In this document: piece by piece, positions 7,528 to 26,861 of the stretch
Position numbering within the stretch: the first letter of the stretch is position 1
Layout of the letters: every line of letters starts with the position of its first letter
From: Algisphaera agarilytica
GTDB taxonomy: Bacteria; Planctomycetota; Phycisphaerae; Phycisphaerales; Phycisphaeraceae
Reading direction: 5' to 3'
Assembly (NCBI RefSeq): GCF_014207595.1
Contig: NZ_JACHGY010000001.1
Coordinates: 744,001 to 808,000 of the forward strand
DNA: 64,000 bases
Notes under the pieces: generated by a model
Database searches by the model: none
What the model saw: only the letters and a program-made list of their open reading frames with translations
Told to the model about the DNA's origin: nothing
Translations under genes and position numbers: made by a program

Positions 7528-7543
7528 AAGTGACCCCTACGGG
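7528..7543 (+). repeat. Left attachment site (attL core)
   Basis: AAGTGACCCCTACGGG, identical to 26784-26799. After one mismatch both copies continue with TT. It repeats the last 13 bases of tRNA-Glu (antisense) plus three bases beyond the tRNA end. The other outside flank, 7484-7527, is the original downstream flank of the tRNA. Confidence 0.88.
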
Positions 7544-7765: not shown

Positions 7766-7838
7766 CCCCACACGTCGCCCCCACCGGCTGGCGTGCGGGG
7801 CTGCGTTTACTTCACAGCCAGCGATAAGGAATATCGAC

Positions 7839-8192: not shown

Positions 8193-8200
8193 ATCATCTA

Positions 8201-8240
8201 GCCCACGCTGCCTTAGCGGGTGGCGGTGGGCATTTATTAA
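8201..8240 (+). terminator. Possible terminator after the 117-residue gene
   Basis: GCCCACGCTGC pairs with GCGGTGGGC, with a G bulge, around a short loop (8201-8231). The tail ATTTATTA is only weakly U-rich. It lies between two convergent genes. Confidence 0.4.
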
Positions 8241-8314
8241 CGCAAGTCATCTGGATATATGCGAGCACAGCTCAGGCCAAGACTACACCAGTTTGCGCGA
8301 ACCCATGTGCACTA

Positions 8315-8788: not shown

Positions 8789-8827
8789 ATCAAGGTCCTT
8801 TGGATTTGGCCGGTCGTAACCGCCCGA

Positions 8828-11800: not shown

Positions 11801-12022
11801 GTTAACCGAGGTCTCGATGGGGAACGTGACGTACTGCTCGACCTCGTCGGCAGAGAGCCCACCGGACTCCGTCATGATGGTGACGGTCGGCGCGTTGAGT
11901 TCAGGAAATACATCTACTGACATGTGTGGTAGCCGGTAACCGGCATAGGCCACCACAAGCACGGCGGCAATCAGCACGAGCGATGAATAGTTCAGAGAGA
12001 AGCGGATGACAGCTTTCAGCAT
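8828..12022 (-). CDS. RND efflux pump, heavy-metal (CusA/CzcA-like) family
   Basis: A 1064-residue inner-membrane proton-driven pump, of the length usual for the family. It has one N-terminal helix, a large periplasmic domain, a helix bundle from about residue 340, a second periplasmic domain and a second bundle from about 875. The helix-4 segment AIGVLVDDAIIDVENVFRR carries the acidic proton-relay residues typical of RND pumps. The gene follows the adaptor gene by two bases and precedes the lipoprotein, so a complete tripartite exporter is encoded. With His-rich partners the likely substrate is a metal cation such as copper, silver, zinc or cobalt, but I did not identify substrate-specific residues. 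Confidence 0.92.
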   Translation of the reverse strand: MLKAVIRFSLNYSSLVLIAAVLVVAYAGYRLPHMSVDVFPELNAPTVTIMTESGGLSADEVEQYVTFPIETSVNGMTGVRRVRSASAIGLSIVWVDLDWGADLYDARQLVSERLNAARGSLPEDTEPFITPITSIAGEIMLVSLSSPSREVSSMDLRAYAEFDLRNKILAVPGVAQVVAIGGELPEYQVNVDQERLRLFDLTISDVVQAAGGSHSTASGGYLVDVDHFEIPIRQQSRVTRPQDIANTIIKYHDGVPVTIGQVAEVRLGPALRRGTASEGGQSAVILSIQKSPGTNTLALTDQLDILFDQIEPTLPGGAELNRDVVRQSHFIDRSIDNVTKVLLEAVVIVLVVLVLFLMNVRTTLITLTAIPISLAVGLLIMDGMNLGLNVMTLGGLTVAIGVLVDDAIIDVENVFRRLKQNRGRPESDRRDAVEVIFDASNEIRPAMVFATLIIVMVFVPLLALQGLEGRFFQPLALTYMVSIGASLLVALTVVPALCRFLLKGRLGGGGQHEDRDGFLVRLLKRSYEPSLRYAIRLRVWVIGGAGLATVGALLLASTYGTSFLPSFNEGTFTVFLLAPPGTSIIESDRLATEVEKQLVEIDGVRSVSRRTGRAERDEHAEPVSNSEIEVTVEDGRDRHEVREGIDRVLGAIPGITTMVGQPIEHRLSHVLSGTPAAITINVYGEELSELRRVAKKVEGELQALPGARDVNANREVMITSLPIRYRHAELAAVGLSPADAAEQVREAIYGERVDVVNEGIRQYDLVVRLAPDQRESIRQVRDLLLRGRGGATVRLRDVADIGPERSSNLITRENAQRKAVISLNVAEDSNLGDLVEQVRERVDPIVAEAGMTVSYGGQFEAQQSASRTILVAGLVVAVVMLLLLQISTGSMRAAVLVMLNMPLALIGGIVAIYLTEGGGAVSNTLALLGVGGDYIPPVISIASMVGFITLFGIAVRNGILLINHYNHLMQEEGVAPDEAVVQGSMERLVPILMTAISAALGLVPLALAAGEPGSELLAPLAIVTLGGLLTSTFLNLIVVPAGYALVFRCQAEPRRAPGPGASIH

Positions 12023-12024
12023 GT

Positions 12025-13482
12025 TCAGTGCTCTCCCTCGTGAAATGTACCGTCGGCGTGGAAATGGCCACCTTTCTGGATGGAGCCGCTGCTCGAAAGC
12101 ATGAGCTGGAAGCCGCCGTCTAAAACGATCTCGTCACCCTCTGCAACACCGCTGAGTAGCTCAACCCATCGGCCATCGTCACGGCCGAGGTCTGCTTCCA
12201 TCCGCATCACCTGGTTGGGATCATCGGGCTGGCGTCGGAAGATGACTGGGGTCAGCCCATCGCGCTGGACGGCGGCAAGCGGGATCGTCAATTCGGTAAT
12301 CGCAGATTCATCAAACACCACCTCAAGCTGCGCCGACACACCGGGACGTGCCCAATCCTTGAGTTGTTCGGGAATCACGAACATCTCAACTGTTCGCTCG
12401 TTCGGATCGCCTTCCAATCCGAGTTGAAGTTCGCCAGTCATGTCGTCGCTGATAGAAATCGAGCGTCCAGAGGCGGTCGGTGAGGGTGAGACAATTCTCG
12501 CCGAAAGACCATCGCGTAGTACGCCAAGATCGCTCTGGAGACCTGATGCTCGGAAGCGAAGACGGTCGGGTTGAACAACGGTGACAACCGAGGTCTTTTC
12601 GTCCGCCCAAGCGCCAGTGGTCAGCCCAAACATCGCTACCACACCCGCCACTTCGGACCGCACCTCGATTCGGTCAATCGTGGACCATCTTGGTAGAGCC
12701 CGGCCATCGCTACGGGTGGAAGCGAGAAGGTCTGCACGGCCTAATGCCGTGACCGCCGCTGCATCATCCAACAGATAATTCAGGCGCGATTCTGCCGCCC
12801 GAATCCCGACCTGTGCCTGCTGCCTCTCGGCAGTCAGCTCTGCCTTTTTTTCTTGTACTTGTGCGAGATCAGCCCGCGCACTGCTCAACTCGGCGCGGGC
12901 CTGCGTGAGTTGTTCAATCCGCCCGCCGCCCGCCTCGCGGAGCCCCTCCAATCCCTCCACACGAGTCGTCCAAACTTCGATTACGTCCCGCAAGCTCTGC
13001 TCGTGTTCCTGGTGAGCTTCCAGCAGCGGGCCGTAAGTTTCGATCTGAGCACGAAGCTGATCGATTTCGGAACCCGCTTCGGCAAGGTTCTGTTGCAGTT
13101 CACGCCAGCCCGGCGAGTCGATGCGGTACAGCACCGCCCCCGCCTCAACCTTTTGAAACTGCTCAACCTCCAGCTCAACCCGCCCCGGTACCGGAGTGCG
13201 GTAATCACGACGGGCAGAGGGCTGGTATTCAAAGTGCCCCGGCACGCGCAAAGTCTGCTCAACCCTGCGACGCTCCACTTGAACAAACGTAATACCGAGA
13301 TTGTTGCGGACTGGAGCCGGGATATCGATGAGATTGAGGTTTTCGGGTTGCTGGCGATCGGCATGCTCACCACCATCTTCCCGCTGATCATCGTAGTTAG
13401 GAGAACTACCATCGCAAGCGATCAGTAGCAATGGAACGGCCAACATGCTCGTGAGCCAGGCCCTTTGTGTAACAAATTTCAT
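12025..13482 (-). CDS. RND periplasmic adaptor (CusB/HlyD-like)
   Basis: A 485-residue membrane-fusion protein. A lipoprotein-type N-terminus ends in LLIAC near residue 23. A barrel-sandwich half is at about 80-130, a long coiled-coil hairpin runs from about 130 to 235, and beta-barrel and membrane-proximal domains follow. The C-terminus is His-rich (GGHFHADGTFHEGEH), which suits metal handling. Its start overlaps the outer-membrane gene's stop by 4 bases (13479-13482), and the pump gene begins two bases after its stop. Adaptors of this type link the pump to the outer-membrane channel and, in CusB, pass metal to it. Confidence 0.9.
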   Translation of the reverse strand: MKFVTQRAWLTSMLAVPLLLIACDGSSPNYDDQREDGGEHADRQQPENLNLIDIPAPVRNNLGITFVQVERRRVEQTLRVPGHFEYQPSARRDYRTPVPGRVELEVEQFQKVEAGAVLYRIDSPGWRELQQNLAEAGSEIDQLRAQIETYGPLLEAHQEHEQSLRDVIEVWTTRVEGLEGLREAGGGRIEQLTQARAELSSARADLAQVQEKKAELTAERQQAQVGIRAAESRLNYLLDDAAAVTALGRADLLASTRSDGRALPRWSTIDRIEVRSEVAGVVAMFGLTTGAWADEKTSVVTVVQPDRLRFRASGLQSDLGVLRDGLSARIVSPSPTASGRSISISDDMTGELQLGLEGDPNERTVEMFVIPEQLKDWARPGVSAQLEVVFDESAITELTIPLAAVQRDGLTPVIFRRQPDDPNQVMRMEADLGRDDGRWVELLSGVAEGDEIVLDGGFQLMLSSSGSIQKGGHFHADGTFHEGEH

Positions 13483-14936
13483 GGCGAGATTCCTTCGGCC
13501 GCATCGCGGTCGTTATCAATGGGTTCTGTGTTGTTTGTGCCTGGAACGGGCACTGGCTTTATCGCTTCTGCTGGCCCCAGTAGCCGCGCCACCTCGATTC
13601 GGTCACGTAGCGCAGTTTGGTGCAGTTCGAGAATTTGGTTCTTTGCTTCAAACCGCCGGGTCACTGTCTCTAACAAGACGAGTGTGTTCACTTCCCCCAA
13701 TTCAGCAAGGCGATCGATCTCGTCCGCCTGCTCATCGAGCATCGGAACCAATTCTCGTTCGAGAACCTTTCGTTGCTGCTCGGCTGCTTTTAATCGCGTC
13801 TGAGTTGACACCAACTCGAAAGCGAGACGTTCATACTCGGTCTCGACCGTCGCACGTGCTAGGTCACGGTTCGCATGCGCCTCGGCGATGCCACCCCGGT
13901 TGGCGTTGAAAACTGGGATTGGTAGAGAAGCGCCGAGCAGGAGTCGGTCGTCATTATCCTCGCTGCCAAGACCGCCCCCGATCTGAATATCTGGATATTG
14001 CTTTTGGACCTCCAGCCGCAGAGCTTCTTCTGCGACTTGGTAATCCGCTCTCAATGCCGCAAGATAGGTACTCGTACGGATTAGTCGTTCGGTCAATTCT
14101 GATGGTTCGAGGTCGTCCAACACCGGTAGTGCTGACACAAGTGTGAGTTGTGTTTCTGGCAGCACTCCCATCAACGCAAGAAGATTAAGCCGCGCCTGTT
14201 CGGCCTCGGCGGCAACGGAAAACCTTTCTACGCTCAGACTAAGCCCCTGAGAGTTGAGCAGCCTCACCTCGGTACGAGTGAGTTCTCCCGCCTCGACTAG
14301 GCGACTGGGCACCTCACTGATTTGGCCGATTGATTGGATCACCTGATCGATCAGCTCCACTCGTTCGTTTGCCACCGACCAAGTGACCCACGCTTGGCGA
14401 ATTCGTGCCCTCGTGGTCCATTCGGCATCGACAACATGCCGGAGCTGCGCAACATACGCCGCATCGGCCCGGTCCTGTTCAGCACCGAGTCGTCCCGAGA
14501 CAGGGATCGTCAAACTCAACGTCATCCCGTATTCAAACGGGCCCGAGGGCGAGAGCAGTTCTGCCCCATCAAAGCCAAATACCGGGTCTTCCCAAAGGCC
14601 AGCCGTCTCAGAAGTGGCTAGAGCCACGCCCGCGTTTAGTCGAGCCAAGCGCAAGTCCGGGTTGTAGAAAAGTGCAATTACCTCGGCCTCAGCTACGTCG
14701 ATCCCATCGCTGAGATCGAATGCGTTGGCCGCATCTCTGTCGGCGATCGAAAGCCGCTGCGAGAATGCACGAAGCGTCTCCTGCTCATCCAGGCGTGAGG
14801 CAACTTCGGCCCTGTGTAGTTCAAGGTTGACGGGTACGGGTTGGTAGCTCTGGCAGCCCGAGAAGAGCAAGACGCTTACATACAGCGCCGCGTACCAGAG
14901 CCTCCGCGCATACCGCGAAAAGCATCTAATTAACAT
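13479..14936 (-). CDS. TolC-like outer-membrane efflux channel
   Basis: A 485-residue outer-membrane efflux protein with a lipoprotein signal (LLFSGC near residue 27) and two repeats of long amphipathic helices alternating with short strands, as in CusC/CzcC. It supplies the outer-membrane duct of the tripartite pump. It comes second in the operon, after an 83-base gap from the Cys/His-rich small protein, and overlaps the adaptor gene by 4 bases. The N-terminal half is rich in polar helix-forming residues. The protein has the full family length and no visible defect. Confidence 0.9.
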   Translation of the reverse strand: MLIRCFSRYARRLWYAALYVSVLLFSGCQSYQPVPVNLELHRAEVASRLDEQETLRAFSQRLSIADRDAANAFDLSDGIDVAEAEVIALFYNPDLRLARLNAGVALATSETAGLWEDPVFGFDGAELLSPSGPFEYGMTLSLTIPVSGRLGAEQDRADAAYVAQLRHVVDAEWTTRARIRQAWVTWSVANERVELIDQVIQSIGQISEVPSRLVEAGELTRTEVRLLNSQGLSLSVERFSVAAEAEQARLNLLALMGVLPETQLTLVSALPVLDDLEPSELTERLIRTSTYLAALRADYQVAEEALRLEVQKQYPDIQIGGGLGSEDNDDRLLLGASLPIPVFNANRGGIAEAHANRDLARATVETEYERLAFELVSTQTRLKAAEQQRKVLERELVPMLDEQADEIDRLAELGEVNTLVLLETVTRRFEAKNQILELHQTALRDRIEVARLLGPAEAIKPVPVPGTNNTEPIDNDRDAAEGISP

Positions 14937-15019
14937 GGATAAATTCCTGAAAGCGATCCAACGAATAGCCAGCCATCAACCATGCGATCGACGGTGGAAA
15001 CGGGAACGAACTTCCAGTA

Positions 15020-15442
15020 CTACACAATCAGACGAGTCGTTGAGATATGTTCCACACGCTGCATGCCACCGGGGTCAAACCAACTTGGCATTTGTGGCAA
15101 GAACCCAATCGGCCGAAAATGCAGGCTGCGGACCAACACCAGATCAACGGTTTCGAATACGAGCGCTGTTGGAAATGAGGATTCCACACGAGGCGGTACT
15201 GTAAGCAGTTCAGAAATCGAGAAATCAATATCAATACACCCACATTCAGAGTGTGATTCCTCAACCGGAACGGGCAGCAAAGCATTGTTGGACGCATGGC
15301 TGCAGTCCAGTTCACATGCTTGAACTATATCGTCATCTGGATGCTCGTGCCCACCTCCAAAACAAATTACACCAGCCGTATTGCCAAGCAAAGCTTGGAA
15401 CAACACGATTGCAGCAATCAAGATGGGTACCACTTTAGGCAT
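15020..15442 (-). CDS. Cys/His-rich exported protein heading the efflux operon
   Basis: A 140-residue protein with an N-terminal hydrophobic signal-like segment (about residues 5-24), then Cys and His in ligand-like spacing: CFGGGHEHPDDD, CELDCSH and HSECGC. I do not know a named family. Its place at the head of the RND operon and its ligand content suggest a periplasmic metal sensor or chaperone. The ATG at 15442 is directly preceded by an AT-rich stretch that probably holds the operon promoter. It could also act as a leader peptide-type regulator. The assignment of a metal role is inference. Confidence 0.65.
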   Translation of the reverse strand: MPKVVPILIAAIVLFQALLGNTAGVICFGGGHEHPDDDIVQACELDCSHASNNALLPVPVEESHSECGCIDIDFSISELLTVPPRVESSFPTALVFETVDLVLVRSLHFRPIGFLPQMPSWFDPGGMQRVEHISTTRLIV

Positions 15443-15827
15443 GCTTATACGTAGCGTATATCGGCTAGCACAGTTCTACAAAATCAAATTCATATTTGAG
15501 TTTTCGTTATCACTTAATTCAAGATATACACGTCCACTCGACCTACCAGAAGTCATAGCCACTCCGAGACCACCCGCAGAGCGTACTAATGGCTCTAACG
15601 TATTCTGGGCAAAATTCGCGTCAAGCTATCTCATAGAACATGAGAGGCGATTTCCCCCCATACCCCCCTCGCGTCCTCACACCTCCAACTCAGCAACACA
15701 TGCCCCCACCCCTTCTTGTCAACTCGTCAGGAGAAGGCGTCTAATCGCCTGAAACCGCCGGGCACCTGTGGGCTCGCCTGAGAGGTCGGAAGCTCTTAGG
15801 CGTCTTCTCTCTGGACCTGCTGGCCAT
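15443..15827. promoter_or_regulatory. AT-rich region upstream of the efflux operon
   Basis: About 385 bases without a credible gene. The first 100 bases next to the operon are clearly AT-richer than the surroundings. On the minus strand TTGTAG, a 17-base gap and TACGCT lie shortly before the ATG at 15442, which is a weak promoter candidate. I saw no clear MerR/CueR-type long dyad, and no metalloregulator gene is present in the element. Confidence 0.35.
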
Positions 15828-16016
15828 TCACAGCTTGCCACCGACATGCCACAGCCCCCAAGCGGCACCGGCACATAGCACCGCGAGAGCTGCAAACATC
15901 CCCGCGACGTTGGGGACTCTGATAGCGACCTGAGCGAAGTCGATGGTGAACCACGCTGGCACGATTGCCACGGCGCGGAGGAGTATTCCTAGCCACCCGG
16001 ATACATGTGGATTCAC
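15828..16016 (-). CDS. Small membrane protein
   Basis: A 62-residue protein starting at GTG 16016 with a good AAGGA about 8 bases before it. It has one hydrophobic segment at about residues 8-22 and a second at 35-57, with few charges. The size and two-helix plan are like small phage membrane proteins (holin-like) or toxin-like peptides, but there is no specific motif and I do not assign a function. It shares direction with the next small gene and lies between the efflux operon and the recombinase module. Confidence 0.5.
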   Translation of the reverse strand: MNPHVSGWLGILLRAVAIVPAWFTIDFAQVAIRVPNVAGMFAALAVLCAGAAWGLWHVGGKL

Positions 16017-16137
16017 GGTCTGATCCTTGCGTTGGCCACCTCACGGGCGGCGTGAGTCGGTCCTTCCGAAATCTACCCGAAAATGCATAGACATTGACGA
16101 AAAGCCTCGGCCTCTCTGGTCGGGCTGTATCAGCGGG

Positions 16138-16353
16138 CTATCGGCCCAACTGTTCGCGGTAGAAGGCGACCATCAGCCGCCCCACCGATACAGCCTTCGC
16201 ATCCTCTCCACGCTCCCACTCTGCGTACTGGTGAGCTTCAGCCGTGCTCTTCAGCCAGAAGGCATTCATAGCCCACCGACCGCTTCGCACAGTCACAGCT
16301 CCACCATCCAGATCAAGCATGAACCAACGTCCTGTCTCAACGAGTAGCTTCAC
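16138..16353 (-). CDS. Small hypothetical protein
   Basis: A 71-residue protein from GTG 16353, mixed charge, with aromatic residues in the N-terminal half and no membrane segment or known motif. The ribosome site is poor (GGAG about 12 bases upstream). It lies divergent to the serine recombinase. It may be a real small element gene, but the support is limited to codon pattern and position. Confidence 0.4.
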   Translation of the reverse strand: MKLLVETGRWFMLDLDGGAVTVRSGRWAMNAFWLKSTAEAHQYAEWERGEDAKAVSVGRLMVAFYREQLGR

Positions 16354-16588
16354 CCGAAAGACTCCATGTATAAGCTGCCTCGTCGATGACGCTGACCGTC
16401 AACGCCACGCCGAAGCCTCACCAGCAAGATACCCACCTCTACACCTGCGCGCCACAACAAACTCAAAATAGTTCACGAAATGACGAGAAACCTCTGGCGC
16501 GCCGATGGCCGTGGCGCTACGATGGCGACCGTTACACATATCGAACGTCCGTTCGTGCCTGTAACGCCCACTATCCGAGGAGTAAAGC

Positions 16589-17296
16589 ATGGTCAGTCAG
16601 CCCGCCCCACGATTCGTCGCGTATCACCGCGTGTCTACTGCACGCCAAGGCCGGTCAGGCTTGGGGCTGGAAGCCCAGGAGGAGGCCGTCCGGGTTCACA
16701 CCGCTACGGTCGGCGGGACGATCCTGGAAGCCTTTACCGAGGTTGAGTCCGGCAAGCGGAGAGACCGGCCCGAGTTGGCCAAGGCATTAGCCGCGGCGAA
16801 GCGGCGGAAGGCTGTCCTCATCGTGGCCAAGCTGGATCGGCTGGCCCGTAACGTGGCGTTCCTCTCCGCCTTGATGGAGTCGGGGGTGGACTTCGTCGCC
16901 TGCGATAACCCGCACGCCTCCCGGCTGACGATTCACATTCTGGCGGCTGTTGCCGAGGATGAGGCTCGGCGGATCAGCGAGCGGACCAAGGCCGCACTGG
17001 CTGCGAGGAAGGCTCGGGGCTTGCCGCTGGGGAATCCGGCCAACCTCACGCCGGGGAACAGCCCCGCTCCTCAGATGAACAAGACGAAGGCCCAAGCGGA
17101 CGCCGAGCGGATGCGGCCTGTGGTGGAGTCGATCCTCGGGGACACGTCTGTGGCCGTGGAATCCGTACGGGGACTGTGCAGGGAGTTGAAGGAGCGGGGG
17201 TATGTGACGGCGTCGGGGTCTGATTGGCACCCAACGTCCACGAGCCGCCTGCTCGTCAGACTTGGGCTTGAAATGCCTTCCACCCGTAATTACTGA
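16589..17296 (+). CDS. Serine recombinase (resolvase/invertase family)
   Basis: A 235-residue serine recombinase. The catalytic serine is in YHRVSTARQGRSG (Ser16). The resolvase fold includes LDRLARN near residue 88, FVACDNPHA near 106 and the helix with EDEARRISERTKAAL near 130. The tail, with GLCRELKERGYVTASG and a WHP segment, matches the helical DNA-binding part of short recombinases. GAGGAG lies before the ATG. It could resolve dimers of the element, invert DNA, or be left from an earlier insertion of the cargo. It is a second recombinase besides the tyrosine integrase at the right end. Confidence 0.9.
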   Translation: MVSQPAPRFVAYHRVSTARQGRSGLGLEAQEEAVRVHTATVGGTILEAFTEVESGKRRDRPELAKALAAAKRRKAVLIVAKLDRLARNVAFLSALMESGVDFVACDNPHASRLTIHILAAVAEDEARRISERTKAALAARKARGLPLGNPANLTPGNSPAPQMNKTKAQADAERMRPVVESILGDTSVAVESVRGLCRELKERGYVTASGSDWHPTSTSRLLVRLGLEMPSTRNY

Positions 17297-17345
17297 AACT
17301 TCAAACGAACACTTACAACTCTCTACGAGTAGAAGAACTAGAGCT

Positions 17346-17975
17346 ATGAACGAACCGAGTAAACAATTCATTGATATTGAGCACGGACGCGAACCGGCCG
17401 AGCTAACCGGCCACACTTACACCCCTAGTCAATTGCCGTGCAACGGTGAGACAGAAAACAGATGGAAAGGTTGGGTCACATGGTGGGGACTTAAGAAGGG
17501 TGATGTTGTCGGAGTACGCATGGCGGTTCAAAAACGTGACTACAGCGACGACCCCACAGCAGGCATCGAGATCGGAGGAATGTTCAAGTACGCATTGGCG
17601 GAAGTCGTGCACCTCAACTTCTCTCAGCCACAGCACCGAGTCCCTAGGCAAATAACCGTTGCCGTACTTGACGGCTATCCCACTGAGCTGAACGGCAAGT
17701 ATTACGGGAAAGGATCGAAGTGCAGCGCGGCGTATCGACTCGGGGACCGCAAGTATCAGCTCGTTGCTCCGACACCGGCCGTAGTAGCCGCAGCACACGA
17801 GAAGGCAGAGTTTCCCACCGCAAGACTCACTTTCGCAGATCATGGTGACGGGGCGGGTCAGTCCGACGATCCAGAAGCGTACTACCAAGGAAAGACGGGC
17901 AGCCGCGGACGAAAGCTGAAGGTGAGGGCGGAGCAACAGCGAAAAAGACGCAATGCCCAGAAGGCAAAAATGTAA
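17346..17975 (+). CDS. Hypothetical protein after the recombinase
   Basis: A 209-residue soluble protein of unknown family, starting at the ATG at 17346, about 50 bases after the recombinase stop. The N-terminal two thirds look like a compact alpha/beta domain with many Trp and Tyr. The last 40 residues are basic and repetitive (RGRKLKVRAEQQRKRR), a possible nucleic-acid-binding tail. An in-frame start further upstream overlaps the recombinase and adds no typical residues. No membrane segment or catalytic motif is visible. Confidence 0.55.
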   Translation: MNEPSKQFIDIEHGREPAELTGHTYTPSQLPCNGETENRWKGWVTWWGLKKGDVVGVRMAVQKRDYSDDPTAGIEIGGMFKYALAEVVHLNFSQPQHRVPRQITVAVLDGYPTELNGKYYGKGSKCSAAYRLGDRKYQLVAPTPAVVAAAHEKAEFPTARLTFADHGDGAGQSDDPEAYYQGKTGSRGRKLKVRAEQQRKRRNAQKAKM

Positions 17976-18945
17976 CCTCAAACACCCCACGTAAATGTCT
18001 TTGTAAAAAGCACTTTGTGTTTAGACATCAGTTGTTGAATATAGGGTTGCGCTTGAGCCTCCAAGCGTGACTCCAGCCTCTATCTTGAGCGTCGTATCAC
18101 TCGCCGCTTGAGTGGCTTACGTCCACCCCGCAGTTGATGTAAATCCACCCGAGGTTAAAGGACACATAAGCAATATACGAATCGCTCCTCTCCCGATCCC
18201 ACACTCCCCTTCTCCTCACCAACCCCACCCCGGCCTAGTGTCCTACGAACGCCTCCCCTTCCATCCGTCGCCGCATTCACCACGCTGGGTGTGGCTCGTC
18301 GGTGTTGTCCGTCCGCCTGACTGATGCCCCCAGCGTTGATGGGCGTTCAATTGGCGGGCCGGGGTGGGTTGAGACCGACGGAGAAGCCCGCTACCCCCTA
18401 GCAGAGAGCGTGTAAGAGCTTCCGGGTGCCACACCGACCTCGTTCCCCCTCAGGAAGATCGAGACGCTTAGAGCCTCTCTCCTGACGAGTTGGACTATCC
18501 GTTGCCCCCTGGGGTCGTTCGGCTGCATGGGTGTTCTCTATGTTATGTCAGGGTTCGGACCACAGCCCCCACCAATCAGCTCTTCACGGTGCGTTGTGTC
18601 GTATTTCGGACGTAATCCCCCAGTACAACACCAACAGAGAAGTGGCTAGGAGACGCGTTATCCCTAGCCCGGCGTTTACCCACCGTGAACGCTCGGACGC
18701 ACGCTAAGCACATCTCTGTGGTTGCTTGGCCCATCACGCAACAGGGAAGCCTGTAAGGGCCCGAAGCTGAGTACGACCGTTGGCCCTTCTAAGACTCTGA
18801 AAGCCAGCAGAGCCTTCGGTAGTGGATGGAACAACGATCTTTTACCGCACCAGCTACACACCTTTCTTACCCCTTGCCTCGTCCCCCGCCGTCGCGGAGG
18901 GACTTTCTCACACCCACCCCTTCTCAATCGAAAGGACTTTGCCCA
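17976..18945. other. Long non-coding stretch with hairpins, in the element
   Basis: About 970 bases without a credible gene on either strand. It holds two perfect 7-bp stems: GGCTAGG/CCTAGCC at 18644-18669, and AAGGGCC/GGCCCTT at 18755-18788. A shorter CGCTTG/CAAGCG hairpin lies near 18050. I saw no iteron-like series of direct repeats. It lies directly upstream of the primase module, so a replication origin, packaging site or regulatory RNA is possible. Confidence 0.5.
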
Positions 18946-19353
18946 ATGAACTCGCACTCTCAGAATCAATCGAACTATTGGAGGAACCGCAAAAACAGGA
19001 TGAACGGCTGCGTAGTGGACCCAGACGCACCGCCGCCCACACACGACGTCATTGCATGGACGTACGGCGGGCATCCGCCAACCGAACGCATGGGATCAGC
19101 AGCCAAGCTGGCCCGCCTCCTCGAACACACCCCATATCTCACTATCAATGCCGAAATGCTCTGGATGCTGACAGGAGTCAGGTCTAACCGTCACGCGAAG
19201 GCGATGCGTGATCCGCGTGTTGCTGCAGTGGCTGAACGTCGGGGATGGCGGCAGTTGATCGAAAACAGACCGAGCGGCGGTAAACGCTCATCCCTGACCC
19301 GCGAACCCATCGAAGATCGAAAGGACTCGATTAGTGCCCACGAAAATGAATGA
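18946..19353 (+). CDS. Hypothetical basic protein before the primase
   Basis: A 135-residue protein, rich in Arg, His and Asn, starting at the ATG at 18946. An earlier in-frame ATG would add a Pro-rich stretch that looks non-coding. The middle, GSAAKLARLLEH...MLWMLTGV, suggests a small helical DNA-binding fold, but I recognise no family. Its 3' end overlaps the primase gene by 20 bases, so the two are probably coupled, which points to a replication or copy-control role. That is inference. Confidence 0.55.
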   Translation: MNSHSQNQSNYWRNRKNRMNGCVVDPDAPPPTHDVIAWTYGGHPPTERMGSAAKLARLLEHTPYLTINAEMLWMLTGVRSNRHAKAMRDPRVAAVAERRGWRQLIENRPSGGKRSSLTREPIEDRKDSISAHENE

Positions 19354-20506
19354 CCTGAACAAGCTATTGAGGAAAGAAGCCTTGGCGGCAGTGGGGAGAG
19401 GCTGGAAGGTGTTCCCACTGGCACCGCGGAGCAAGATGCCTCTACGCAACTCGGCGGGCTGGAAGGACGCATCGACTTGCCCCGAGCAGGTCCAGCTTTG
19501 GTGGAGTAAGACTCCGGAGGCCAACATCGGACTGGCAACGGGGGAAGTCTCAGGCGTGGTTGTCCTCGATGTTGATCCACAACACGGGGGAAATGAATCC
19601 CTAACAGCTCTGGAGGCGGAACACGGCCCCCTGCCGACTACCGTAGAGACGGCCACAGGCGGAGGAGGAAGGCACCTCTACTTCAACCACCCAGGCCGAC
19701 GGATCAGCACAAGCATTTCGAAGATCGGTGATGGCCTAGATGTACTGGGAGATCGTGGCAGTGTGGTACTTCCCGAATCGATTCACAAGACAGGAACTGT
19801 GTACGAGTGGACCCATTCACCAAACACCACACCCATCGCTGACCTACCGGGTTGGCTTGGGAAGCTGATGGATGGTCCACCAAGTGGGAGTTATTCTTCC
19901 CCTGTATATACCCCACCTGTAAATCTGTCCTCTCTCTCCTCATCTGTCCTCTCTGTCACACCTGAACTTGAGTCCCTGATTGTCTCCACCCAACCCACCG
20001 CTGAGGGCCAGCGTCACCGCAGGCTGTTTGATCTAGCCAGAGGCTTGAAGGCCTTACCCGAATACGCTCAGGCCGAGGCGAGGGCCGTAAGGCAGATCGT
20101 CAAGCAATGGCACGCACTCGCACAGCCAATCATCGGGACAAAAGAATGGGAGGCGACATGGGGGGACTTCGTCGAATCCTGGCCCAAGGTGAAGCACCCT
20201 GCCGGAACAGGACCTTTCGCGGAGGCTGTTTCTAGGGCAAAGCAAGCGCCGAACCCCCCAGAAGCCGAGGAATTCGACTCGCCCAGCACCAAGCTGTTAC
20301 TCCGTATCTGCCGGGAACTACAACGCCAAGCCGGGGACGAGCCCTTCTACTTAGCTTGTAGAACCGCGGCTCAAGCTATCAGCATCAACCACAACTCAGC
20401 AAGCCGACTTCTCAAGATGTTCACCGCTGACGGACTCCTTGAATTAGTCGCCAAGAACACCACCCACAGGGCTACCCGCTACCGATACCTCGGCTCTATG
20501 GACTGA
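19334..20506 (+). CDS. Bifunctional primase/polymerase (Prim-Pol) protein
   Basis: A 390-residue protein with an N-terminal Prim-Pol domain of the kind found in plasmids, satellites and phages. GWKVFPLAPRSKMPL near residue 20 is the family opening. VVLDVDPQHGG near 75 has the metal-binding DxD, and TATGGGGRHLYF near 105 has the conserved His. The C-terminal half (about 210-390) is helical and ends in a winged-helix-like segment with SINHNSASRLLKMFTADGL. No Walker motif is present, so a helicase must come from elsewhere. I start it at the GTG at 19334 because AAGGA lies 9 bases before it. An ATG at 19346 is possible. The role is to prime or copy element DNA. Confidence 0.85.
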   Translation: MPTKMNDLNKLLRKEALAAVGRGWKVFPLAPRSKMPLRNSAGWKDASTCPEQVQLWWSKTPEANIGLATGEVSGVVVLDVDPQHGGNESLTALEAEHGPLPTTVETATGGGGRHLYFNHPGRRISTSISKIGDGLDVLGDRGSVVLPESIHKTGTVYEWTHSPNTTPIADLPGWLGKLMDGPPSGSYSSPVYTPPVNLSSLSSSVLSVTPELESLIVSTQPTAEGQRHRRLFDLARGLKALPEYAQAEARAVRQIVKQWHALAQPIIGTKEWEATWGDFVESWPKVKHPAGTGPFAEAVSRAKQAPNPPEAEEFDSPSTKLLLRICRELQRQAGDEPFYLACRTAAQAISINHNSASRLLKMFTADGLLELVAKNTTHRATRYRYLGSMD

Positions 20507-20597
20507 ACCACCCACAGCACCAACCGCACAAGTACTCGCCCAGCCGACCACGGCGATGGGATGCGTTGCTGTGCGCCTACCCCGAAAGACCTATCCA

Positions 20598-20984
20598 ATG
20601 AAAACCCCCACCAAGACCATCGTCCGCCGCGAACCCTACCGAGAAACCGACAAGAACGGCCGTGAGGTCGTCCGCGTTCCGCTCGCAGGCGGTCTACACA
20701 CCGCCACACTCTACGCCGAAGACTTCGACCGCATCATCGCCGACGGCTGGAGCGACCAATGGCAACACGTATCCAATTACAGGGGCCGTCGATATGTCCG
20801 TGTATGCCATCGAGACGGTGGCAATAGACGAGAGAGCATCCACCGCCTAGTCGTGGACGCAGGCCCAGGCCAAGCGGTCATGTTCAAGACGGACAACACC
20901 CTCGACCTGCGTCCGAGCAACCTCATCGTGTGCCGCAAGAAGGACCAACAGCGTCCCTATGTGACCCACCTCCTATACGACTGA
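20598..20984 (+). CDS. Degenerate HNH-type protein
   Basis: A 128-residue protein. The C-terminal part, with SIHRLVVDAGPGQAV, TLDLRPSNLIVC and KKDQQRP, follows the layout of phage HNH homing endonucleases (HRLV..., DH.DGNTLDNR.SNL). The middle His that should coordinate the metal is replaced, because the usual VDHIDGN is VMFKTDN. Nuclease activity is therefore doubtful. It sits between the primase and the large ejection-type gene, where HNH genes are often found in phages. It could be a decayed free-standing endonuclease or a DNA-binding protein that has lost catalysis. Confidence 0.65.
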   Translation: MKTPTKTIVRREPYRETDKNGREVVRVPLAGGLHTATLYAEDFDRIIADGWSDQWQHVSNYRGRRYVRVCHRDGGNRRESIHRLVVDAGPGQAVMFKTDNTLDLRPSNLIVCRKKDQQRPYVTHLLYD

Positions 20985-21017
20985 CCCGCCCACCACACCA
21001 ACACGAAACACCCAACT

Positions 21018-24000
21018 ATGACTGAAAACACCTTCAACCCCACCGCGGCTGCCGCCGAATCAGTGGAAGTGGGCGAGGTCGTCTCGACCGTCCCCGCCTC
21101 CTCCGCTGCCCCTCCCCGACTCCCCTCTCCCGACGCCCGCTTCCGAGCGGAAAACGAGCCTCCCTCGTTCTTCGCGACCTTCTCCGCTGCGTGGCAGGAC
21201 AACACCCTTACCGCCGCGGGCCTCCGGTTCATCAACCGTGAGCAGCAACAGCTCGACACGACCTTCCGGTGGACAGATAAGGAATTTGAACAGCTCACCG
21301 CCGACCTCCCCCTCGAAACCCTCGACGAGTTCCGCGGAGCTGTCTCCTACAGCCACGCTCAAACCATCAGGCAGAGAATCCTCGATTCACAGGAACGCAA
21401 GGCCACTCTCGCGGACGCCGGATGGACAGGCGCGACACTGTCGATGGTTTCCGCCATAACCGACCCCGTCACGCTCATCGCTGGTGCCCTCACAGGTGGG
21501 ACCGCGTGGGCCGGAGGCATTGGCCGAGGTGCCTGGGCCTATCGAGCCGGTAAAGGTGCCTTAGCTGGTGCGGCTTTCACCGGTACCGAGGAAGCTCTCC
21601 TCAACCTCGAAGACCCAATCCGCGACTACACCGATGTGATGGTTGCCTCCCTCTACGGGGCAGCCTTCGGGGGCACGATCAACGTCGCCGCTCCGCAGCT
21701 TCGCAACGCCTACGTCAAGACCTCCAGCCGCCTCGAAGCCCAGGCGATGAACCGTGCGGGCATCCCGCTGAGTGAGCTGGGAACAGACCTCGCCGGAACC
21801 TCGCCTCAGAGAGCCTCTAAGCGTCTCAAACAGGTGGATAGTCCAGAGGCCTTCGGGGAGGTCTCCTCAACACACAGGGCTCTCTCCGAGACCCTAGAGA
21901 CGCTCTCAGATGCCAAACTCCTCGGCACCTCCGGTGTGCGGGCAGCTCGTCAAATCCTCTCCGTCGTCAACCCCAAACTACTCGCCCGCGTCTCCCTCTC
22001 TGCCGCGGACGATATCCGTAACGCTGTGGGAGAGTCAGTGGAAAATGCCTTGGGATCGACTCGGCAGGTTGGCGACGGGTTCCAAGTGAACCTCCGCCGG
22101 TCGGAGAGCGGGGCGAAGGGGAAACGCCAACTCGGCGTCCTCCTCCACGAGATCGGCCACGCTGCACACAAGACCCTTGATCCCGCAGCAGCCAAGCAAT
22201 TCAACTCTCTGGTGGCTGACCTCCGAGATCGGAATCAGCTCCGCCAGTTCGTTACCGCGATCGCAGGCCGAGACGTCGCCCGTGACCTGTCCCGGCTTGA
22301 AGCCGACCCGGCGGAACTGTTCGGGGAAGTCTTCTCCAAGTCCCTGATTGCCCGGTACGGGGGAGATGCCGTTTCCGACTACTCCAAGCGAGTCGGCCGA
22401 CAGGCGGAGAAGTACCGCGAGGGAGCGGGGCTAGACCCGAAGCTCCTACGCGGCTTCGATAAGATCGTGGACACCGCGGCGGGAATCGATCCCGCCAAGC
22501 TGGAGTTCGAGCCGCAGCTACCGCAGGCACCTTCGCAGGCTTACCTCGACATAGAAGAGGCAACAGCAGCCGCAGATGAGGTTCTATTCGACGTAGCAAG
22601 CGACACGCCCGACCAGCTCACCGGCTTGGAGCGGCGGCTCCGCTTCGACCTCGCAGCAGACATGCTTTCGTCCAGTGTGGAGCGTATCCGGGGCATAGGG
22701 TCTTACCTGCTCTACAACGGCGTGGGCGATCCGGACAAGGTCCGCATCCGCTCTACTGAGGAGGCCATCAGCCAAACCAGCGAGCGGATCAGAGTTGAGC
22801 TGTACGCCAAGGTGAATCCCGCCTTCGAGTCCTGGGCGAGAAGCCAAGGCAGCGGCCTGAAAGCGGTGAGTGACGTTGCCCGTGCGGACTTCTTCGAGCA
22901 AGTCGGCCGGGTGATGCACTTGGAGCAACTACCCGAAGGCATCGACGCCAACGTGGCCACGGCAGCAACAGCCATGCGTCGAGCCATCAACTCGGCTCTC
23001 AAGCACGCCGTGAACTCCAAGGTTCCCGGAGCCAAGGAGGCTGCCAAGGGTCTATTCAACTACCGCCCTCGCGTTGCGTCACAGTCGAAGCGTCTCAACA
23101 CGACCCGCCGTTACGGCAAGAAGGCCATCGTGGATTGGTTCCAAGGGGCAATCCTCTCCGCGTCTAAGAAGCTCAATGCTGCCGATGCCGACGACGTCCG
23201 CGTAGCTCGTCAGATGGCCCGCGGTTACGTGGCTCGCCTGGAGAAGTTCCGTGGGGAAGCAGCGTATCGGGTGAACTCTGGCCTAGCCGGAACAGCCGAT
23301 GAGTTGGACGAAGTCCTCGCCCTGTTCAAAGACCAAGGAAAGATGACGGACGCCGATATCGCCAAGGCCAAGGATATTCTCGTCAACCCCGAGGACGGAC
23401 GCCCCGACATATTCAAGGCCCGCATGCCACTTGATGAGGACTACGTCCAGAAGACCAAGGACGGCGAGATCGCTTTCCACGACCTCTTCGAGACCGACGC
23501 GGAGAAGCTCGCTCAGTATTACATCCGCTCCTCTGTCCGAGAGTCGGAGTTCTACTCTTTGCGTCGTCGCTTCGCCGACCCGAAGAAGGACACACGCACC
23601 ACCAAGGCGCTAGACGATGAGGGGAACGTCGCCGGGGAGACCTCCGAGCTGGTGGTCCCCTCATGGGAGGAACTCATGGGCCGCATAGCGGCAGACATGC
23701 AGAACCTCGACCCGAAGACGTTCAAAGCGGAGAAGGCCCGCCTCGACCGCCTCGACGATGCCGGGAAGATTCTCTCCGGGCAGATCGATGAATCGAGCGG
23801 CGGCCACCAAGCCGCCCGTCTGCTTATGAAGTCCAACTTCAACCGCATCGCGGCTGCGTTTGGTATCGCACAGATCGCAGAGATTCCCGTGGCCGTGGCC
23901 AGTCAGGGACTAGGCGTGATGGTCCGCTCCATCCCCGAGTTCCGCCGCATCCTCACAAACCGGGCACAGACGCTGGTGAATAACGATGACGGAGTCCTTA

Positions 24001-25088
24001 GCGAACTCATCGGTATGGGTATCGGTGCAGAGGGTTGGACCCGACCGAGCCGCCTTATGCAAGACGTAGCGGGCGACTTGGAATGGGATCGCCAGATGCT
24101 CAGCACCGCGGACAAGGCAGAGAAGCTCCTCGACAAAGGGGGCCGGATCGTGTCCATCGTGGGCGGTCTACAGCCCATCACCAACTGGACGCGGGTTGCG
24201 TGCGCCAACACGCTGGCCCATCGCATCGGTATGAATGCCCTAGGCGAAGGCCGAACCATTCGCCTCGAACGCCTGCGCGATATGGGGTGGGATGAAGCCG
24301 CCGCCGACGCGATCTATGAGCAGTTCAGGAAGCACGCCGAGTTCAACGGCAAGAAGCTGGTCCGGATGAACCTGGATGAGTGGGACGAAGACGTGGCCTC
24401 TACGTTCGCCTATGGCGTCACACAGAAGACCCACGCGATCATCCAGCAAAACCACCTCGGCGGTCAGCCCAAATGGTTCGCGTCGTCACCCGTGATGAAG
24501 ATGCTCCTCCAGTTCCGCAGCTTTCAGCTCCAAGCATGGACCAATCAGACTCTCCGCGGTCTCAAGTATTGGGACATGGAGACGTTCGCCAACTTCTCTC
24601 TGCTCGCCTTCGGCGGTGGCCTGTCGTACGCAGCCCTCGTGGCTGTGCGGGCTTCGTCGCAGGAAGACCCGGCGGAGTACCTCGCGGAGCATCTAACGCC
24701 TCAGCGGATGGCTATGGGGGCGTTCGCCCGTAGTGGCTTCTCCTCCATCATCCCGACGGTGGCCGACACGGCGGGCGACATGTTCCTCAACTTCCAGTTC
24801 TTCTCCAACACACGAACCAGCGGACTGCGACAGAACGCCATCATGGGCATACCCACGGTGGACCTGCTCGCGGAGAAGCTACCGGGAGCCATTGGAGCGG
24901 TCGCCTCGCCCATCAGGCCAGACTACAACCTGTCGAGTGAGGACGTCCGCAACTTCCGCTCTCTGATCCCGCTGCAAAACCTCATCGGCATCGACCACAC
25001 CTTCAGGTCTATCGAAGGCCAACTGCCTAAGCGTTCGCAGAAGGCCGACGCCAAGAACAGTCTCGACGCTCTACTCAACGAAGAGTGA
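21018..25088 (+). CDS. Giant phage internal-virion/ejection-like protein with zincin motif
   Basis: A 1356-residue protein. The C-terminal ~200 residues carry the pattern QFRSFQLQAWTNQTLRGL, FGGGLSYAALVAVRA, GAFARSGFSSIIPT and NTRTSGL...GIPTVDLL, which I recognise from T7-like large internal virion (DNA-ejection) proteins. The N-terminal region also fits, with FSAAWQDNTLTAAGLRF followed by glycine-rich hydrophobic stretches near 125-225. Instead of the lytic transglycosylase of T7 gp16 it has LLHEIGHAAH (His377, Glu378, His381), a zinc-protease motif, and DPAELFGE about 50 residues later could supply a third ligand. Such polyvalent proteins travel in virions and enter the host with the DNA. 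No other virion gene is present, so it may ride in a helper phage particle. Confidence 0.8.
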   Translation: MTENTFNPTAAAAESVEVGEVVSTVPASSAAPPRLPSPDARFRAENEPPSFFATFSAAWQDNTLTAAGLRFINREQQQLDTTFRWTDKEFEQLTADLPLETLDEFRGAVSYSHAQTIRQRILDSQERKATLADAGWTGATLSMVSAITDPVTLIAGALTGGTAWAGGIGRGAWAYRAGKGALAGAAFTGTEEALLNLEDPIRDYTDVMVASLYGAAFGGTINVAAPQLRNAYVKTSSRLEAQAMNRAGIPLSELGTDLAGTSPQRASKRLKQVDSPEAFGEVSSTHRALSETLETLSDAKLLGTSGVRAARQILSVVNPKLLARVSLSAADDIRNAVGESVENALGSTRQVGDGFQVNLRRSESGAKGKRQLGVLLHEIGHAAHKTLDPAAAKQFNSLVADLRDRNQLRQFVTAIAGRDVARDLSRLEADPAELFGEVFSKSLIARYGGDAVSDYSKRVGRQAEKYREGAGLDPKLLRGFDKIVDTAAGIDPAKLEFEPQLPQAPSQAYLDIEEATAAADEVLFDVASDTPDQLTGLERRLRFDLAADMLSSSVERIRGIGSYLLYNGVGDPDKVRIRSTEEAISQTSERIRVELYAKVNPAFESWARSQGSGLKAVSDVARADFFEQVGRVMHLEQLPEGIDANVATAATAMRRAINSALKHAVNSKVPGAKEAAKGLFNYRPRVASQSKRLNTTRRYGKKAIVDWFQGAILSASKKLNAADADDVRVARQMARGYVARLEKFRGEAAYRVNSGLAGTADELDEVLALFKDQGKMTDADIAKAKDILVNPEDGRPDIFKARMPLDEDYVQKTKDGEIAFHDLFETDAEKLAQYYIRSSVRESEFYSLRRRFADPKKDTRTTKALDDEGNVAGETSELVVPSWEELMGRIAADMQNLDPKTFKAEKARLDRLDDAGKILSGQIDESSGGHQAARLLMKSNFNRIAAAFGIAQIAEIPVAVASQGLGVMVRSIPEFRRILTNRAQTLVNNDDGVLSELIGMGIGAEGWTRPSRLMQDVAGDLEWDRQMLSTADKAEKLLDKGGRIVSIVGGLQPITNWTRVACANTLAHRIGMNALGEGRTIRLERLRDMGWDEAAADAIYEQFRKHAEFNGKKLVRMNLDEWDEDVASTFAYGVTQKTHAIIQQNHLGGQPKWFASSPVMKMLLQFRSFQLQAWTNQTLRGLKYWDMETFANFSLLAFGGGLSYAALVAVRASSQEDPAEYLAEHLTPQRMAMGAFARSGFSSIIPTVADTAGDMFLNFQFFSNTRTSGLRQNAIMGIPTVDLLAEKLPGAIGAVASPIRPDYNLSSEDVRNFRSLIPLQNLIGIDHTFRSIEGQLPKRSQKADAKNSLDALLNEE

Positions 25089-25115
25089 GCTAACACCACA
25101 CAACACAACGCGACT

Positions 25116-25166
25116 AGCAGGGCCACTCCTTGGGCATCACCGCCTGGGGTTTGGCCCTGCTTTTGT
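25116..25166 (+). terminator. Rho-independent terminator after the ejection-like gene
   Basis: A 10-bp perfect stem AGCAGGGCCA/TGGCCCTGCT closes a 26-base loop, followed by TTTTGTTG. It separates the primase-to-ejection operon from the HTH/integrase pair. Confidence 0.8.
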
Positions 25167-25185
25167 TGCGCAGGAACACACCTCA

Positions 25186-25503
25186 ATGACCCGAAACACC
25201 CAGCCAGATAGCTGGCTCGACAGTTACGAAGACCAAGACAACGAGCGGCACAAGAACACCGCCAACTCACCCACTACCGCGGGCAGCCTCACCCCTCTAC
25301 TCGTGAACACAGCAGAAGCCGCCCGACTCCTCGGAGGCATCAACCCAAAGACCCTCCAGAAGTGGCGGGATAACGGCCATCTCGACGGGGCATGGTTCCG
25401 GATCGACGGCCCCATCCTCTACTGCGTGGACGCACTCAAGGAGGCGGTGAGGCGGCTATGTGAAGCCTCAGCCTTGACAGCGCGCTCCGATCCATCACAC
25501 TAA
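25186..25503 (+). CDS. Excisionase-like helix-turn-helix protein
   Basis: A 105-residue protein with a MerR/excisionase-type helix-turn-helix at about 40-80: LVNTAEAARLLGGINPKTLQ, then KWRDNGHLDGAWFRI, then a short C-terminal helix. The N-terminal 35 residues are acidic and unstructured. It ends 18 bases before the integrase start, so the two are probably transcribed together. By analogy with phage Xis and the MerR-like AlpA proteins it would bend DNA at the att sites or regulate the integrase. The assignment rests on fold pattern and place. Confidence 0.7.
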   Translation: MTRNTQPDSWLDSYEDQDNERHKNTANSPTTAGSLTPLLVNTAEAARLLGGINPKTLQKWRDNGHLDGAWFRIDGPILYCVDALKEAVRRLCEASALTARSDPSH

Positions 25504-25521
25504 CCCCACCGGGAAACTCTT

Positions 25522-26850
25522 ATGGCAAGTCTCTACACCGAGCACAACCGCCGCACGATTCAGATAAACAACCTGCCGCAGCGTCCCAAACTGCGGCTAG
25601 GACACATCCGTCTACGCCAAGCTCAGTCAATCCTGACGATGGTTGAAGCGTTGGTCGCCTCTCACGTCGCAGGCCTTCCCGTCGGAGACGACGTCGGCCG
25701 GTGGCTCGATACCATCGACGGCACACTCAAGGATCAACTGGCCGCAATCGGCCTGATTGACAAACCAAAGGCAGGCAGGCTCGGCAAGCTCACCGAGTTC
25801 TACATCACGCGGAAAGAGGAAGCCAAGTGCAAGGCGGGTACGCTCACACGGCTGCGACAATCCGCGAAGGACGCTATCAGCTTCTTTGGGTACGACCGCA
25901 GAGTGCACACCATCACGGAGGCGCACTGCGAGGACTTCCGGCACTACCTCCTGCACAAACGGACACCTAAGACTCTCAGCGAGGCTACAACCCGCAAGCG
26001 TTGCGGTGATATCCGTGCGATGTTCACTAGCGCGATCAAGGCAGGCGTGTTACGCTCCAACCCGATGCAAGCCGTGCCCACTGCAAACATCAGCACCACC
26101 CAACGCCAATTCATCTCCGAGGCCGACGCGGTCAAGGTGATGGAGCAGTTCCCTAACGCTCAATGGCGGCTTCTGTTCGCCTTAGCTCGCTGGGGCGGAC
26201 TACGAGTCCCGAGCGAACCCCAGGCATTGACTTGGGCGGATATCAATTTCGACGACAACCGGATGACCGTCCACAGCCCCAAGACAGAGGGCTACGTGGG
26301 CAAAGAGTCACGGATTGTCCCGATCTTCCCGGAGATACTCGGCCCGCTCCAAGACGTGTTCGATCAGGCAGAAGTGGGCGAGGTGTTCGTACTCCCGATG
26401 CTTCAGGACCGAACCGGAGCCGCACTGCGGAAACCAATGGAGAAGGCTGTCAAAGCCGCAGGCCTACAACAGTGGCCGCGGATGTGGCACAACCTGCGGG
26501 CCACTCGGCAGACCGAGCTTGAGGACAACTTCCCCACCCACGTAGTTTGCTCGTGGATCGGCAACAGTCCCGGCATCGCCCAACAGCACTACCTACAGAC
26601 CACTGAGGACCACTTCGCGGCAGCGATTCGCTCCCCAGAACCCGTGGTGCAGTCAGGTCTAGTCTTTGGTGCAGAATCCGGTGCAGTAGACGACGGAAAC
26701 GGAGAGAAATGCTCCGTAATCTGCACCACTCCTACCAATGAAAAAGCGGAAAACCTTGATATAGAAGGCTTTCCGCAAGTATCAAGTGACCCCTACGGGA
26801 TTCGAACCCGTGTTGCCTGGATGAAAACCAGGTGTCCTAGACCAGACTAG
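25522..26850 (+). CDS. Tyrosine integrase, C-terminus altered by integration
   Basis: A 442-residue tyrosine recombinase. The core-binding domain is at about 85-180. Catalytic residues visible are Arg228 in GGLRVPSE, Lys254 in SPKTEG, His323 and Arg326 in WHNLRATR, and the nucleophile Tyr357 in QQHYLQ. The site usually held by a second His/Trp is Trp345. From codon 422 the frame reads through the att core (SDPYG), so the last 16 residues are antisense tRNA sequence. The tail that follows the core at the element's other end is in frame and would lengthen the protein to 499 residues in the circular form. It catalyses insertion into and excision from tRNA-Glu. A terminator for the opposite strand is embedded near codons 407-418. 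Confidence 0.92.
   Translation: MASLYTEHNRRTIQINNLPQRPKLRLGHIRLRQAQSILTMVEALVASHVAGLPVGDDVGRWLDTIDGTLKDQLAAIGLIDKPKAGRLGKLTEFYITRKEEAKCKAGTLTRLRQSAKDAISFFGYDRRVHTITEAHCEDFRHYLLHKRTPKTLSEATTRKRCGDIRAMFTSAIKAGVLRSNPMQAVPTANISTTQRQFISEADAVKVMEQFPNAQWRLLFALARWGGLRVPSEPQALTWADINFDDNRMTVHSPKTEGYVGKESRIVPIFPEILGPLQDVFDQAEVGEVFVLPMLQDRTGAALRKPMEKAVKAAGLQQWPRMWHNLRATRQTELEDNFPTHVVCSWIGNSPGIAQQHYLQTTEDHFAAAIRSPEPVVQSGLVFGAESGAVDDGNGEKCSVICTTPTNEKAENLDIEGFPQVSSDPYGIRTRVAWMKTRCPRPD
26741..26776 (-). terminator. Replacement terminator for tRNA-Glu, carried by the element
   Basis: On the minus strand GCGGAAAGCCTT pairs with AAGGTTTTCCGC (one mismatch) around a 7-base loop, followed by TTTTT. It lies about 10 bases beyond the tRNA 3' end and inside the integrase coding sequence. 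It takes the place of the original terminator, now at 7484-7512. Confidence 0.75.
26784..26799 (+). repeat. Right attachment site (attR core) in tRNA-Glu
   Basis: AAGTGACCCCTACGGG, identical to 7528-7543. Bases 26787-26799 are the last 13 positions of tRNA-Glu (acceptor strand and part of the T-stem). The neighbour on the right is the intact rest of the tRNA. Confidence 0.9.
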
Positions 26851-26861
26851 ACGAAGGGGCC
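26787..26861 (-). tRNA. tRNA-Glu (anticodon UUC)
   Basis: A 75-base tRNA on the minus strand. The acceptor stem GGCCCCT pairs with AGGGGTC (one G-U), with discriminator A. The anticodon stem CCTGG/CCAGG holds loop TTTTCAT, giving anticodon UUC. The T-arm contains GGGTTCGAATCCC. CCA is not encoded. The tRNA is complete, so the insertion in its 3' end regenerated a working gene. Its 5' neighbour lies outside the element, at higher coordinates. Confidence 0.95.

Follow-up and report, generated by a model that had tools for sequence, protein, structure and literature searches.

The window analysed here, a 64-kb stretch of the Algisphaera agarilytica genome, contains an integrated element bounded by two copies of an exact 16-bp repeat, AAGTGACCCCTACGGG (Table 1). 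We call this repeat the att core. The spacing between its two copies is 19,256 bp, and the repeat extends to 19 bp if one mismatch is allowed. Only 1 of 2000 16-mers starting in positions 25000-27000 recurs within the window. The right copy overlaps a tRNA-Glu gene. The element has the layout of a tRNA-targeted genomic island or prophage, with a tDNA at one end, a 3' tDNA fragment at the other and an integrase inside. Joining the two outer ends by script gave an empty site with an intact tRNA-Glu. In the same-genus genome G002, the tRNA-Glu adjoins a homologue of the FHA gene of the right flank. The genome search found no integrase match in G002, whose assembly is 91% complete.

Table 1. Features of the element, its target and its integrase gene in the window.
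Feature	Position	Strand	Basis or remark
Integrated element	7528..26799	.	19,256-bp unit plus second core copy
Left att core	7528..7543	+	exact repeat of right core
Orphan 73-codon integrase tail and stop	7544..7765	+	in frame with the integrase across the circle junction; profile match
Arm-like repeat, P' side	7600..7625	+	inside tail coding sequence
Tail helical hairpin (predicted), ELGEVMAAWPTLPTHVRKTILGITRSTK	7676..7759	+	structure model of tail
HTH_17 protein, candidate excisionase/RDF	25186..25503	+	just upstream of the integrase; Pfam E 4.9e-6
Integrase ORF, integrated (short) form, 442 aa, tyrosine recombinase	25522..26850	+	ORF; Pfam SAM-like and Phage_integrase domains
Arm-like repeat, P side, GGTGCAGAATCCGGTGCAG type	26661..26686	+	inside integrase coding sequence; best match to left-end repeat
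Right att core	26784..26799	+	last base of integrase codon 421 to codon 426
tRNA-Glu(TTC), attB target	26786..26861	-	ARAGORN; antisense to integrase 3' end

As cargo, the element carries a CzcA/CzcB/CzcC-type RND heavy-metal efflux operon (8828-14936, minus strand); it also has a primase-polymerase. A serine resolvase/invertase gene (16589-17296, plus strand) accompanies the element's own tyrosine integrase, and inverted repeat arms lie on either side of it (15720-15750 and 18462-18492). A 1356-aa protein (21018-25088, plus strand) matches a phage internal virion protein with an endolysin domain (phrog_342, E 6e-113). With this virion-protein homologue, the element could be a satellite or a defective prophage.

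The integrase matches PF00589 (E 2.6e-6) and PF13102 (E 1.4e-8). The best fold match of its relative L149 is lambda integrase (1z1b, E 2.4e-10). Residues R228, K254, R326 and Y357, which correspond to the catalytic residues known for this family, are invariant in a 25-row alignment. All four are encoded upstream of the core, so the integrated short form retains them. Among PHROG families, the HTH_17 protein encoded next to the integrase weakly matches a MerR-like regulator (E 4e-4) and an excisionase (E 0.0023).

The right core lies within the integrase ORF. It is read as SDPYG (codons 422-426) and followed by 16 codons of antisense tRNA and a stop. Past the left core, the same frame stays open for 73 codons. 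We joined the ends of the element by script, with the crossover placed 0, 8 or 16 bases into the core, and obtained a 499-aa ORF at all three points. Thus, the attP core sits inside the integrase ORF and is in frame on both sides, as in an Mx8-type arrangement. Integration exchanges a C-terminus of 73 codons for one of 16. The first-pass annotation had claimed that the integrase frame crosses the core at these codons and ends after 16 antisense-tRNA codons. It had also claimed that the left core with its 73 in-frame codons would give 499 residues in the circle and 442 in the prophage. Both claims held, the second on the script-made junction. A circle junction out of frame would have spoken against them; the junction is in frame.

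We then asked how often this arrangement recurs. The order set consisted of the window and 72 hand-picked, near-full-length relatives from the same family and order. One of them had no stop, which left 72 evaluable loci. Partial matches and most contig-edge matches were left out, including the long form on contig G001:C161. A left copy was counted if the repeat had at least 13 bp and overlapped the tDNA, or had at least 16 bp where ARAGORN calls no tDNA. This rule was meant to keep arm-like repeats from counting as cores. The 12-bp picks in G062:C17 and G060:C1b fall under the 13-bp limit and were not counted.

In 60 of the 72 order-set loci, a tRNA or tmRNA gene lies antisense to the integrase ORF and overlaps it. 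A left repeat was detected in 41 of them, against 2 of 72 in a control with the reverse complement of the upstream DNA. One control match, in G032:C1c (L105 and L283), is a 21-bp match of the tDNA region lying inverted upstream. After the left repeat, a tail of 40-130 codons is open in the integrase frame (frame 0) at 40 of 41 left ends; the other two frames give 9 and 7. The sole exception, G052:C14, has no called tDNA, and its left repeat is probably a chance or arm-like match. The targets of the 41 elements include tRNA-Val, Glu, Lys, Met, Gln, Ile, Phe, Leu, Arg, Ala, Tyr and His, and tmRNA. The elements of this set are compact (3.7-35 kb).

For the set outside the order, we started from the 45 matches in other orders whose E was below 1e-90 and left out three partial ones (G162:C1, G134:C1 and G184:C4), which gave 42 loci. 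The tDNA overlap is present in 29 of the 42, and left copies were detected in 15 (control, 2). Only 10 of these 15 left ends are followed by a tail of at least 40 codons. The five others (G213:C1, G308:C1a, G174:C1b, G217:C45 and G276:C1) have 0-21 codons. A left copy is missing in 31 of 72 loci of the order set and in 27 of 42 outside it, partly because contigs or fetched stretches end first.

Across 50 elements, the integrase does not keep to a single frame of the tDNA: the three frames account for 30, 11 and 6 elements, and 3 are undetermined. The frame that is kept is therefore that of the integrase and not one frame of the tRNA. In a tree of the integrase bodies, the embedded layout occurs throughout (89 of 114 loci). 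The 25 loci without a detected overlap are scattered and do not cluster, requiring 22 changes against a shuffled mean of 22.8. Some of them end, by eye, in tDNA-like peptides that ARAGORN does not call. As a separate observation, seven integrases of the same family (L095, L097, L102, L128, L254, L270 and L271) stop short of the tDNA, with a tRNA or tmRNA gene 60-160 bp downstream of the stop. They might represent a loss of the switch.

The tail behaves as a conserved protein part. We built a profile from the order-set tails and tested it by leaving one genome out at a time (E < 0.01, database size set to 1). It recognises the frame-0 tail in 39 of 41 held-out cases, and pieces from the other frames in 2 and 1. 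The tail of the window scores E 6.6e-11 under the same scheme. Outside the order, 11 frame-0 tails reach at least 10 aa; of these, 9 score E <= 0.001, a level that no other-frame piece out of 13 attains. The four remaining frame-0 tails are shorter than 10 aa. The consensus has two blocks, GGAKSGA and DPDLAALIAAWPSLPPAVRAAILAMV. Among 371 tail pairs with over 35% identity, pN is lower than pS in 359, although the pairs are not independent. In a subset of 16 pairs, 3 have dN/dS values of about 0.87-0.95.

Structure models predict that the end of the tail is helical. We modelled the 73-aa tail of the window with 30 relatives (alignment A3, which used 31 of the 43 tail reference sequences). Helices are predicted at residues 45-55 and 58-72, with pLDDT block means of 87-97 from residue 41. 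An AlphaFold2 model of the natural long form L149 (492 aa, 22-row alignment) has pLDDT below 50 at residues 376-461. Past this stretch, it shows helices at 463-474 and 477-489, with block means of 70-92. In these models, the core and the arm-like repeats are coded within a predicted disordered linker between the catalytic domain and a C-terminal helical hairpin.

These arm-like repeats are paired, matched tandem repeats that flank the core in most elements. They lie about 110-170 bp before the core, in the integrase body, and about 35-60 bp after it, in the tail. Within an element they match better than between elements (median score 18 versus 10), and in 37 of 50 elements their own pair beats all 8 swapped partners. 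The pair of the window scores 14 against 8 swapped partners with a mean of 9.8 and a maximum of 13, which is a narrow margin. Their usual peptide readings are AQNPAQ-like for the body copy and GGAxSGA for the tail copy, so that the repeats look conserved at the level of DNA. On the analogy of lambda, they would be arm sites of the integrase. We infer from the sequence and the model that attP would consist of the DNA that codes for a flexible linker in the protein.

The tail is absent from all 114 genome-assembly integrases in the sample (best E 0.019). On viral contigs, a search with a 25-row alignment returned 82 relatives, and 80 of them were retained; the same scan with a single sequence as query gave no matches. 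At 9 of the 80 viral loci, the tail and the catalytic domain are in one ORF (7 distinct tails), and none of these 9 overlaps a tDNA. In some of them (L144, L149, L176 and L179) a tRNA-like core peptide is visible by eye. Of the remaining viral loci, 6 overlap a tDNA without a tail, 62 have neither and 3 are open-ended. The 62 loci with neither mean that the tail is not universal for this type of recombinase.

A sibling pair presents both forms. L149 has 492 aa and no tRNA, and L156 has 437 aa and ends in a tRNA-Ser. Their DNA is 81.8% identical over 1300 bp up to the core, and beyond it they diverge, one into the tail and the other into the tRNA-Ser. A further long form comes from a same-genus genome, on the contig G001:C161, which was outside the sample of 114. 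The contig has 6156 bp and a 121-bp exact terminal repeat, as a circle or a tandem array would be expected to have. Once closed, it encodes a 527-aa long form whose tail scores 1.1e-7, and 16 of 17 positions of its core fit a tRNA-Phe found in another genome. Overall, natural long forms have 479-527 aa, and integrated copies have a median of 427 aa (50 elements).

Among the best 80 of 209 named loci, which overlap in part with the other samples, 70 overlap an antisense tDNA and none has the tail at E < 1e-4. Judging by record titles, nearly all of these 80 are from Planctomycetota; L306, L330 and L331 are not. Phage records gave only a distant match in 1 record with the window integrase as query, and plasmid records only distant matches in 9 records with L149 as query.

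These results bear on another claim of the first-pass annotation, that the tail looks like the natural end of planctomycete integrases. It held in part. Relatives share a homologous tail in frame, but integrases in genome assemblies do not usually end in it (0 of 114 sampled). The free forms do end in this tail, and in integrated elements it is left behind as an orphan at the left end. Related integrases ending near residue 426 had been named as a possible refutation. This is literally true of the integrated copies, which are themselves recombinants. The claim that integration switches the integrase is supported at the sequence level, and an effect on excision or stability is only inferred. 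As precedent, it had cited mycobacteriophage repressors; the integrase of phage Mx8 is closer.

In Mx8, a phage of Myxococcus, attP lies inside int and integration replaces a 112-residue C-terminus by 13 residues. Integration leaves the Mx8 enzyme modified and with lower activity, though it does not inactivate it (PMC6070905, PMC4701971). The planctomycete enzyme resembles the Mx8 integrase (IntP) in being a tyrosine recombinase with attP in its gene and a long C-terminus swapped for a short one. The two are also laid out similarly: the catalytic domain is followed by a linker, which contains a GLEP motif resembling antisense tRNA, and then by a C-terminal extension. In the GenBank record of Mx8, the gene adjacent to int is annotated as the excisionase uoi. 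BLASTP of the window integrase against Mx8 Int is not significant (E 0.49), and the tail is different. An hhalign comparison gives weak similarity (probability 54.6%, E 1.2e-4) over 182 columns at and before the catalytic domain and leaves the tail unaligned. Furthermore, unlike Mx8, the planctomycete enzymes form a family that occurs across Planctomycetota, uses many targets and has its paired arm-like repeats within the ORF.

Other known systems are less similar. In archaeal SSV-type suicidal integrases, the att site is in the integrase gene and integration alters the gene; a review of archaeal recombinases considers self-disrupting integrases exclusively archaeal (PMC8371274). There, the gene is split into an N-terminal and a catalytic part, whereas the planctomycete catalytic domain stays whole, with R228 to Y357 all upstream of the core. 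Streptococcal ICEs in rumA have attR in the integrase gene, and their excised and integrated forms differ at the C-terminus (PMC6070905, PMC4701971). However, their enzymes are serine integrases, an unrelated class. In mycobacteriophage BPs, attP is in a coding gene, integration shortens the C-terminus of the repressor, and the long form is degraded via a tag (PMC4557955). The switched protein is the repressor in BPs and the integrase in the planctomycete element. The authors of Islander allow for integrases that extend across attP (PMC4383910). Our title-level search of the literature found no paper on this planctomycete arrangement. Thus, the principle is already known from Mx8, while the breadth, the removable hairpin and the layout of attP as a linker appear to be new.

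The sequence itself implies the isoform switch, and relatives show it again with a homologous tail in the right frame. At this level, it is shown that the integrase encoded by the circle is long, and that the one encoded by the prophage is short and retains the conserved catalytic-type residues. It is also shown that, once the element has recombined with the tRNA gene, a short antisense-tRNA run stands in place of the hairpin codons. The rest of the proposed mechanism is inferred. The hairpin would regulate the recombinase, for which there are no activity data. The long form, made from the circle, would favour integration of attP into attB. While the element is integrated, the loss of the hairpin may then damp its turnover and re-integration. 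Excision would be carried out by the short form, probably together with the adjacent HTH protein, and would restore the long gene. Integration would thereby limit itself and could be undone, in line with what has been described for phage Mx8. A role of the tail in deciding between integration and excision is an inference and is not shown. Several findings count against the explanation: the left ends outside the order that lack a long tail, the tail pairs with dN/dS close to 1, the viral relatives with neither tail nor tDNA overlap, the integrases that stop short of the tDNA, the 21-bp control match and the narrow margin of the arm-like pair of the window. With these and without expression, protein or activity data, we favour this explanation as a whole with moderate confidence.

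Three rival explanations must be weighed against the hairpin-regulated switch. The first, less likely but possible, is self-inactivation. In this case, no recombination would proceed without the hairpin, the integrase of the prophage would be dead, and excision would need the long integrase of another element, as in the archaeal SSV-type. The conservation of the tail in sequence and frame speaks for it, many genomes contain several related integrases, and there is the archaeal precedent (PMC8371274). Against it, the short forms keep the conserved catalytic-type residues, unlike the split SSV-type genes; most viral relatives (the 62 of 80 above) have neither tail nor tDNA overlap; and the recombinant form of Mx8 remains active to a lesser degree.

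It seems unlikely that the arrangement is a mere by-product, in which compact elements put attP over the 3' end of the integrase gene and the ORF runs through without functional consequence. The small size of the order-set elements, the arm-like repeats, which put a DNA-level constraint on part of the tail, and the reading of the tDNA in all three frames speak for it. Nevertheless, the tail profile is specific to frame 0, the models place a helical hairpin beyond the arms, pN is lower than pS in most tail pairs, and the other frames mostly close earlier. We give very little weight to a degradation switch, in which the long tail is a protease tag like that of the long BPs repressor and integration stabilises the integrase. 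A C-terminal tag removed by integration has a precedent (PMC4557955). However, none of 50 tails ends in LAA or VAA and only 2 of 50 end in AA, and the tail is a conserved hairpin, not a short tag.

Returning to the hairpin-regulated switch, a bolder reading extends it to a large family of planctomycete integrases that would use recombination itself as a directionality switch. The attP site, including its arms, would be linker DNA. The conserved hairpin would be detachable, present only in free elements, and edited off and restored in each cycle across tRNA and tmRNA targets. We consider this reading slightly less likely to hold than to fail. Integration that rewrites the integrase is described for very few bacterial elements in the reviews consulted (Mx8 and the rumA ICEs; PMC6070905, PMC4701971). 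A common architecture with a removable hairpin would offer many natural long/short pairs in which to ask whether a recombinase encodes its own direction. For annotation, it means that many integrases in planctomycete genome assemblies are recombinants ending in antisense tRNA and not the complete protein of the free element.

Two minor observations concern single loci. L118 and L121 (G051:C4b and G060:C1a) have integrase bodies that are 93% identical and tails that are just 58% identical, with a dN/dS near 0.95; the pattern looks as if elements at one site had exchanged tails, which is only a possibility. At L243 (G290:C1), two integrase genes of the family are adjacent in tandem on one strand and might belong to stacked elements.
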